A stretch of DNA of 64,000 bases from Gardnerella piotii. GTDB taxonomy: Bacteria > Actinomycetota > Actinomycetes > Actinomycetales > Bifidobacteriaceae. Below the pieces are notes generated by a model. It was not told the DNA's origin. It did not search any database and saw only the letters and a program-made list of their open reading frames with translations. This document shows, one piece after another, positions 22,008-22,276 of this stretch. The position numbers were made by a program, and so were the translations under genes. The stretch covers positions 1,178,001 to 1,242,000 of the forward strand of contig NZ_QJUV01000001.1 in the NCBI RefSeq assembly GCF_003397585.1. Direction: 5' to 3'. Position 1 is the stretch's first letter, and each line of letters begins with the position of its first letter.

Positions 22008-22148
22008 ATGGAAATCGGAGTGTCGCATCACCTTGCTTTTTCACTTGAGCGTAGCATGAAAAAGCAAATTGATGCGATAGCGCTTGCTCAAAGTGGAAAG
22101 CCAATGCGCTTTCCACGCAAGCGCGACCCCGATTTCGCCTACACTTAG
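22008..22148 (+). CDS. Candidate 46-residue small protein in palindromic element
   Basis: ATG-initiated ORF of 46 codons beginning MEIGVSHHLAFSLERSMKK and ending RFPRKRDPDFAYT, with GGAAGG immediately upstream. The sequence is basic and not recognisable. It spans exactly the hairpin-rich element described separately, so its coding potential may be a by-product of the repeats. It is the only + strand ORF between murI and ileS. Confidence 0.3.
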   Translation: MEIGVSHHLAFSLERSMKKQIDAIALAQSGKPMRFPRKRDPDFAYT

Positions 22149-22156
22149 GCGAAATC
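22011..22156 (+). repeat. Hairpin-rich palindromic element (possible structured RNA)
   Basis: Six helices in 146 bp: GAAATCGG (22011–22018) with CCGATTTC (22129–22136); TGTCGCATCA (22021–22030) with TGATGCGATA (22070–22079), one G·U on this strand; a perfect 11-bp TTGCTTTTTCA stem (22033–22043 / 22057–22067); GCGCTTGC (22080–22087) with GCAAGCGC (22117–22124); GTGGAAAGC (22093–22101) with GCTTTCCAC (22108–22116); and a perfect 10-bp hairpin GATTTCGCCT/AGGCGAAATC (22131–22156) that competes with the first helix. Confidence 0.7.
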
Positions 22157-22276
22157 CGAAGACCAACAAAACGCACGCCACAAAACAAATAAACGCCTAA
22201 TTGCTTATATATCCAAAATAAAATTGCCTCCGCGCTAACTACATAACGCGAAGGCACACTATACAATACTTAGCTT

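Follow-up and report, generated by a model that had tools for sequence, protein, structure and literature searches.

A 149-nt stretch between murI and ileS in Gardnerella piotii (positions 22008–22156 of the 64,000-nucleotide piece of contig analyzed here, called the window) is dense in inverted repeats, and the question it raises is what kind of element this is. An earlier note, drawn from the letters alone, had described six helices here and proposed either a palindromic mobile unit with a peptide or a new structured RNA. The best reading of the data below is that the stretch belongs to a previously undescribed repeat family; it is not a peptide gene, and it is not a regulatory RNA tied to a single site. 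On the fuller statement, that these non-autonomous palindromic mobile repeats are modular, conserve structure, act as DNA and form a family specific to Gardnerella, of which the window unit is one copy, we place a probability of about three in four.

The unit between murI and ileS

All six helices proposed for this gap are present. The parts of the unit and its immediate surroundings are as follows.

22011..22156, + strand: a single unit of the modular repeat family, made up of the closing helix and hairpins A to C; covariance model match at 22021–22124, 91.3 bits
22023..22077, + strand: hairpin A; outer stem 22023–22030/22070–22077, inner stem 22033–22043/22057–22067
22080..22124, + strand: hairpin B; outer stem 22080–22087/22117–22124, inner stem 22093–22101/22108–22116
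22131..22156, + strand: hairpin C, the variable third module, with an 11-bp stem (22131–22141/22146–22156)
22011..22136, + strand: closing helix (22011–22018/22129–22136), which overlaps hairpin C and is mutually exclusive with it
22008..22148, + strand: 46-codon ORF, judged incidental; the frame runs through the unit and is not conserved
22215..22256, − strand: probable ileS intrinsic terminator, a GC-rich hairpin followed by a T-rich run, between ileS and the element

The two stems of hairpin A are separated by a 2 × 2 internal loop, CC (22031–22032) opposite AT (22068–22069), and hairpin B carries a 5-nt bulge, TCAAA, at 22088–22092. As RNA, the 149-nt stretch folds at −70.8 kcal/mol on the + strand (z = −8.8 relative to dinucleotide shuffles) and at −77.1 on the − strand (z = −9.8), and as single-stranded DNA the + strand has a z of −9.1 on the same basis. 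These values lie far beyond those of the shuffles; in the + strand folds none of 200 shuffles matched the real folding energy. No run of T follows hairpin C on the + strand or hairpin A on the − strand, so the unit lacks the form of an intrinsic terminator. An Rfam scan of the element returned no family at threshold (best score 22.5 bits, against a gathering score of 70), and membership of a known Rfam family was rejected, the sub-threshold models being of microRNA type and the like.

Terminator-like hairpins are also present 3′ of ileS in other species. The probable terminator hairpin of the window strain (22215–22256, − strand; TGCCTTCGCG..CGCGGAGGCA) is similar to the inner stem of one A module, and the repeat family may have been its source in this strain; the ileS terminator in other species differs (ACGTGCCG).

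Copies in Gardnerella and their gene context

Used as a query against its own genome (1.51 Mb in five contigs), the element returned dispersed partial copies, and the exact pattern of hairpin B occurs there at seven sites. Among 84,980 species genomes this exact pattern was found in 28 stretches, every one from Gardnerella or from a genome named Bifidobacteriaceae bacterium. A covariance model (R1; 105 positions spanning hairpins A and B, built from 21 copies) gave 56 matches in the own genome at E ≤ 1e-3, with 150 of the 1128 first-look candidates scored; since some matches are opposite-strand echoes and the scoring covered this fraction of candidates, the resulting figure of about 50 units is approximate. 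The window holds a single unit. Each of ten further Gardnerella genomes has 24–98 matches to R1 (E ≤ 0.01); of four other Bifidobacterium genomes, three have none and the fourth has three weak ones (E about 1e-3). At E ≤ 1e-4 matches occur in 5 of 121 Bifidobacteriaceae genomes (16 genera); these five are all 1.5–1.7 Mb in size and, judging from their named relatives, should be Gardnerella. The repeat family is restricted to Gardnerella and absent from the other Bifidobacteriaceae sampled. Plasmid and phage collections gave no match to the repeat unit, and the one viral contig that was matched carries a serine-recombinase cassette of Gardnerella type. A search of the open literature, which leaves subscription papers outside its scope, found no published description of the family. 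The many dispersed copies in the own chromosome and across Gardnerella point to a mobile unit, and the palindromic mobile unit of the earlier note was right in outline: about 50 dispersed copies, empty and filled sites and covarying stems all speak for it.

None of 86 clusters of units lies inside a predicted gene. They occupy 52 tandem, 14 convergent and 5 divergent gaps, a further 15, at locus ends, are unassigned, and the background of gaps longer than 100 bp comprises 49 tandem, 8 convergent and 16 divergent, counts that are approximate because the gene calls come from a simple hexamer model. Units favor convergent over divergent gaps (14:5 versus 8:16, p = 0.014). Within tandem gaps 26 units have the same orientation as the genes and 23 the opposite one (p = 0.78), and proximity within 50 bp does not differ significantly between gene 3′ ends (18 of 88) and 5′ starts (9 of 69; p = 0.29). 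Some units begin within the last codons of the upstream gene.

A peptide-coding mobile unit of the Rickettsia palindromic element type would account for the 46-codon ORF that spans the unit, and the + strand frame does exist. However, the orthologous copy in G009, the closest one at ∼90% identity to the window unit, has its ATG replaced, carries a frameshift and contains stops. Only 1 nt separates the GGAAGG from the ATG, and a normal Shine-Dalgarno site would lie farther upstream. Rickettsia palindromic elements are likewise dispersed palindromic units and insert in frame into genes, whereas the Gardnerella units are intergenic in all 86 clusters and have no conserved peptide. In this defining respect the likeness to the Rickettsia elements fails, and a peptide-coding unit is hardly credible.

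The earlier note had also read one G·U pair, possible only on the + strand, as a sign of + strand transcription, and the shared bases of hairpin C and the closing helix as a regulatory switch. The pair is there (G22022·U22078), but the near-even orientations in tandem gaps and the low share of G·U among all paired cells (1.3%) leave + strand transcription unsupported. The mutually exclusive helices 22011–22018/22129–22136 and 22131–22156 are likewise real, and a + strand RNA that switches between them to control murI or ileS would use just such an arrangement. The ileS locus of other genomes argues against it. Part of the flank is common to nine genomes and the unit within it differs. The window strain and G009 have a full unit; G031 (B stem GCGCCGAC/GTCGGCGC, bulge TCAAT) and NR047 also have a full unit, with stems of different sequence; G041 and G043 have hairpin A alone; and G014, G044 and G047 keep a ∼20-bp remnant. 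In 1500E ileS adjoins murI with no unit between them. The closing helix, 8 bp in the window, is 7 bp in G009 and only 3 bp in both G031 and NR047, and is thus conserved only in G009; hairpin C is retained in G031 and NR047 with a different sequence, an unrelated 14-bp stem in the same place. Moreover, the flanking genes lie on the minus strand and vary between species, and the ∼50 copies adjoin unrelated genes in either orientation, unlike a cis-regulatory RNA with a fixed orientation beside one class of gene. The switch reading of the window unit is largely refuted, and we regard such an RNA as very improbable.

Downstream of ileS in G009 (L023:793–1315) lie two short overlapping genes that by eye have a BrnT/BrnA-type toxin-antitoxin look. 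Most Gardnerella species have this pair in the interval from ileS to the hairpin unit; it is absent in the window strain and G014.

A broader RNA explanation holds that the units function as RNA structures at the 3′ ends of mRNAs, either as terminators that work in both orientations and lack a U tract or as RNase barriers, and have spread because they are useful there. The excess in convergent gaps and the units that start inside the last codons of a gene agree with it, as does a hairpin at the 3′ end of a gene that we take to be pepC-like. This hairpin is kept in four species. The gene's final codons, Ala-Leu-Ala-stop, lie in the 5′ arm of the hairpin; they show synonymous differences, and the 3′ arm has matching changes. 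The persistence of the hairpin could reflect a function at some sites. Nevertheless, orientation relative to tandem genes is random, proximity to 3′ ends and to 5′ starts does not differ significantly, there is no U tract, an intrinsic terminator already follows ileS ahead of the unit, and genomes readily dispense with the unit at the ileS locus. We consider this explanation quite unlikely as an account of the family.

In the gap between the pepC-like gene and a DAHP-synthase-like gene (L054:4030–4500 and L039:1445–1640), tandem hairpins lie beside A and B. In these hairpins, upstream of the DAHP-synthase-like gene, the foot is fixed (..CACCGACCACACCAA.. TGTGGT) and the stems vary.

Constant shapes and changing stems

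A unit spans 100–150 bp and strings together two to three hairpins: A (stem, 2 × 2 internal loop, stem), B (a stem with a 4–5-nt bulge) and a simple, very variable C. The shape of hairpin A in the window is kept in other copies and its stem sequence differs. Examples of A types are GCGCTCCGA-CC-TGCCTTTTCGC.., GCGAATCGA-CT-TGCAT.. and GCGCTTTGA-CT-GAGCTTGAAAT..; B types include GCTTGC-TCAAA-GTTGAAAGCAC, GATTTGGC-TCAAA-TGTAAAGTCC, GCCGC-TCAAG-GCAGAAGC and GCCAC-TCAAG-GCAGAAGC; and many C types occur 3′ of B. Modules with different stem sequences are interchanged between copies, and the shapes persist.

In 133 aligned copies (107 distinct) 96.8% of cells show standard pairing. Covariation is abundant: compensatory changes occur in 29 of 31 pairs among the 107 distinct copies, and double-change cells number 561 as against 112 in shuffles, counts that are inflated by whole-module replacement, the alternative modules all retaining the same loop geometry. 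The bulge of hairpin B reads T[CT]A.. in nearly all of the distinct copies, mostly TCAAA, and is conserved across copies whose stems differ. When the same hairpin B scan was run with 16 other bulge pentamers, 15 gave no match and one gave a single match.

The pairing cells comprise 3104 Watson-Crick, 41 G·U and 22 A·C. G·U thus makes up only 1.3% of paired cells, a scarcity which suggests that complementarity is maintained at the DNA level more than by selection on RNA; the slight excess of G·U over A·C is consistent with some possible RNA-level selection in the orientation of the model. How the arms stay complementary in DNA has template switching at replication forks as its main rival explanation. 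In the full form of this rival, template-switch mutagenesis would create the hairpins where they stand, and ordinary recombination and duplication would then spread them, with no transposition-like process involved. Such an origin would fit the unusually perfect stems with few G·U pairs, the pepC-end hairpin, whose 3′ arm copies coding sequence and which is fully perfect in L039, and the gain and loss of whole hairpins at the ileS locus. It would, however, erase the B bulge and the A internal loop that nearly all copies carry, and near-identical modules at many unrelated sites and in many species, together with a whole unit inserted in a loop (see below), also speak against it. We judge this origin unlikely for the family.

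Gain of units and the search for a mobilizer

Returning to the preferred reading, a family of mobile repeats acting as DNA, filled and empty sites can be compared directly. L033 carries a unit where L056, with nearly identical flanks, has a short spacer instead. The apical loop of an A hairpin holds a complete A-B-C unit of ∼121 bp in L016 and L060, and the same A hairpin is uninterrupted in L071 and L107. Together with the remnants at orthologous ileS sites, these pairs show that whole blocks are acquired and lost and that units decay. A MITE would have terminal inverted repeats in common with a resident IS and would leave target-site duplications; no such duplication was seen at the L016/L107 and L033/L056 sites, and no fixed terminal repeat of the units was found.

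As a mechanism, such units might spread as DNA at moments when it is single-stranded and can fold into hairpins, as at replication forks, through a putative structure-recognizing recombinase or transposase supplied in trans or through template switching at the fork. The conserved bulge is the best candidate for a recognition feature, and the arms would stay complementary by palindrome correction or by selection. Any effect on neighboring mRNA 3′ ends would be secondary, and the window unit, lying between murI and the terminator of ileS, would be a passenger there. More specifically, a candidate Gardnerella protein that recognizes the T[CT]A-type bulge in single-stranded hairpins could paste whole hairpin units, sometimes into loops of other units; recognition would then depend on hairpin shape instead of sequence, and stem sequences could drift freely in units that stay mobile. 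We offer this protein as a tentative proposal, with the odds against it.

Known repeat families give partial parallels. BOX elements of Streptococcus pneumoniae are small interspersed intergenic modular repeats with extensive secondary structure and many copies per genome, and their ends have been compared with those of the resident transposon ISSpn2 (PMC3049150). The Gardnerella family is like them in its dispersed intergenic copies of combinable structured modules. It is unlike them in that the identity of a module is its shape (bulge or internal loop), with stems that differ and compensate, in that each module is itself a hairpin and units nest in loops, and in that no resident-transposon partner was found. 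GTAG- and CGTC-tagged REPs, the RAYT-linked ones among them, are many-copy extragenic palindromes with alternative complementary stem residues, often clustered, and the CGTC families are likewise without a known transposase (PMC3733652, whose text makes no mention of Gardnerella, Bifidobacterium or Actinobacteria). REPs are single hairpins of 20–40 bp; a Gardnerella unit measures 100–150 bp, holds two to three hairpins and carries a 5-nt bulge. Tags and transposase differ as well: in Gardnerella an unpaired GTAG tag at the hairpin foot is near-absent (3 of 111 upstream and 4 of 111 downstream, 7/111 together), a CGTC tag adjoins the hairpin in just 34 of 111, on the minus side, downstream of B, and Y1 transposase (PF01797; IS200-type/RAYT) was found in none of six Gardnerella genomes with controls positive. 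Mitochondrial double-hairpin or repetitive hairpin-forming elements (in sponges, PMC2800124, and in fungi) are likewise proliferating intergenic hairpins, sometimes inserted in tandem; in the sponge elements the stems are kept and the loops vary, whereas in the bacterial Gardnerella family the stems vary with compensation and the bulge and internal loop are conserved. Membership tests for the sequence-defined families fail, and the class of modular interspersed repeats fits in kind.

In bacteria, small palindromic repeats shape both the ends of genes and the plasticity of the genome; sequence is what defines most families, and a RAYT or an IS is what they are linked to. The Gardnerella family is defined by a conserved shape and covarying stems, and is confined to a single genus found in the human vaginal microbiota. 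With dozens of copies per 1.5-Mb genome and with gain, nesting and decay visible in a series of species, the spread of hairpin repeats without a known transposase becomes directly testable here, and the units are possible markers for strain typing. The family is also a warning that covariation alone is no proof of a functional RNA.

Two other candidates were rejected. Integron attC sites were dismissed on inspection, the alternative B modules having no shared GTT/AAC core. A serine recombinase encoded near some copies was set aside as mobilizer; most copies of the unit are far from its gene, and its boundary repeat also occurs without a hairpin unit. That gene belongs to an array-like region of the own genome (C2:564056–597032; L016 from 14028 on, L017 and L018), also seen in L155, L056 and L071, in which a ∼180-bp boundary repeat (GTTAACATCCTGTGCACTCGACC...) recurs between cassettes. 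The cassettes encode the serine recombinase (Resolvase+Recombinase) and DUF4097, ABC-F-like and DUF4357 proteins, and their DNA shows ∼98–99% identity from one Gardnerella species to another and to the copy on one viral contig.
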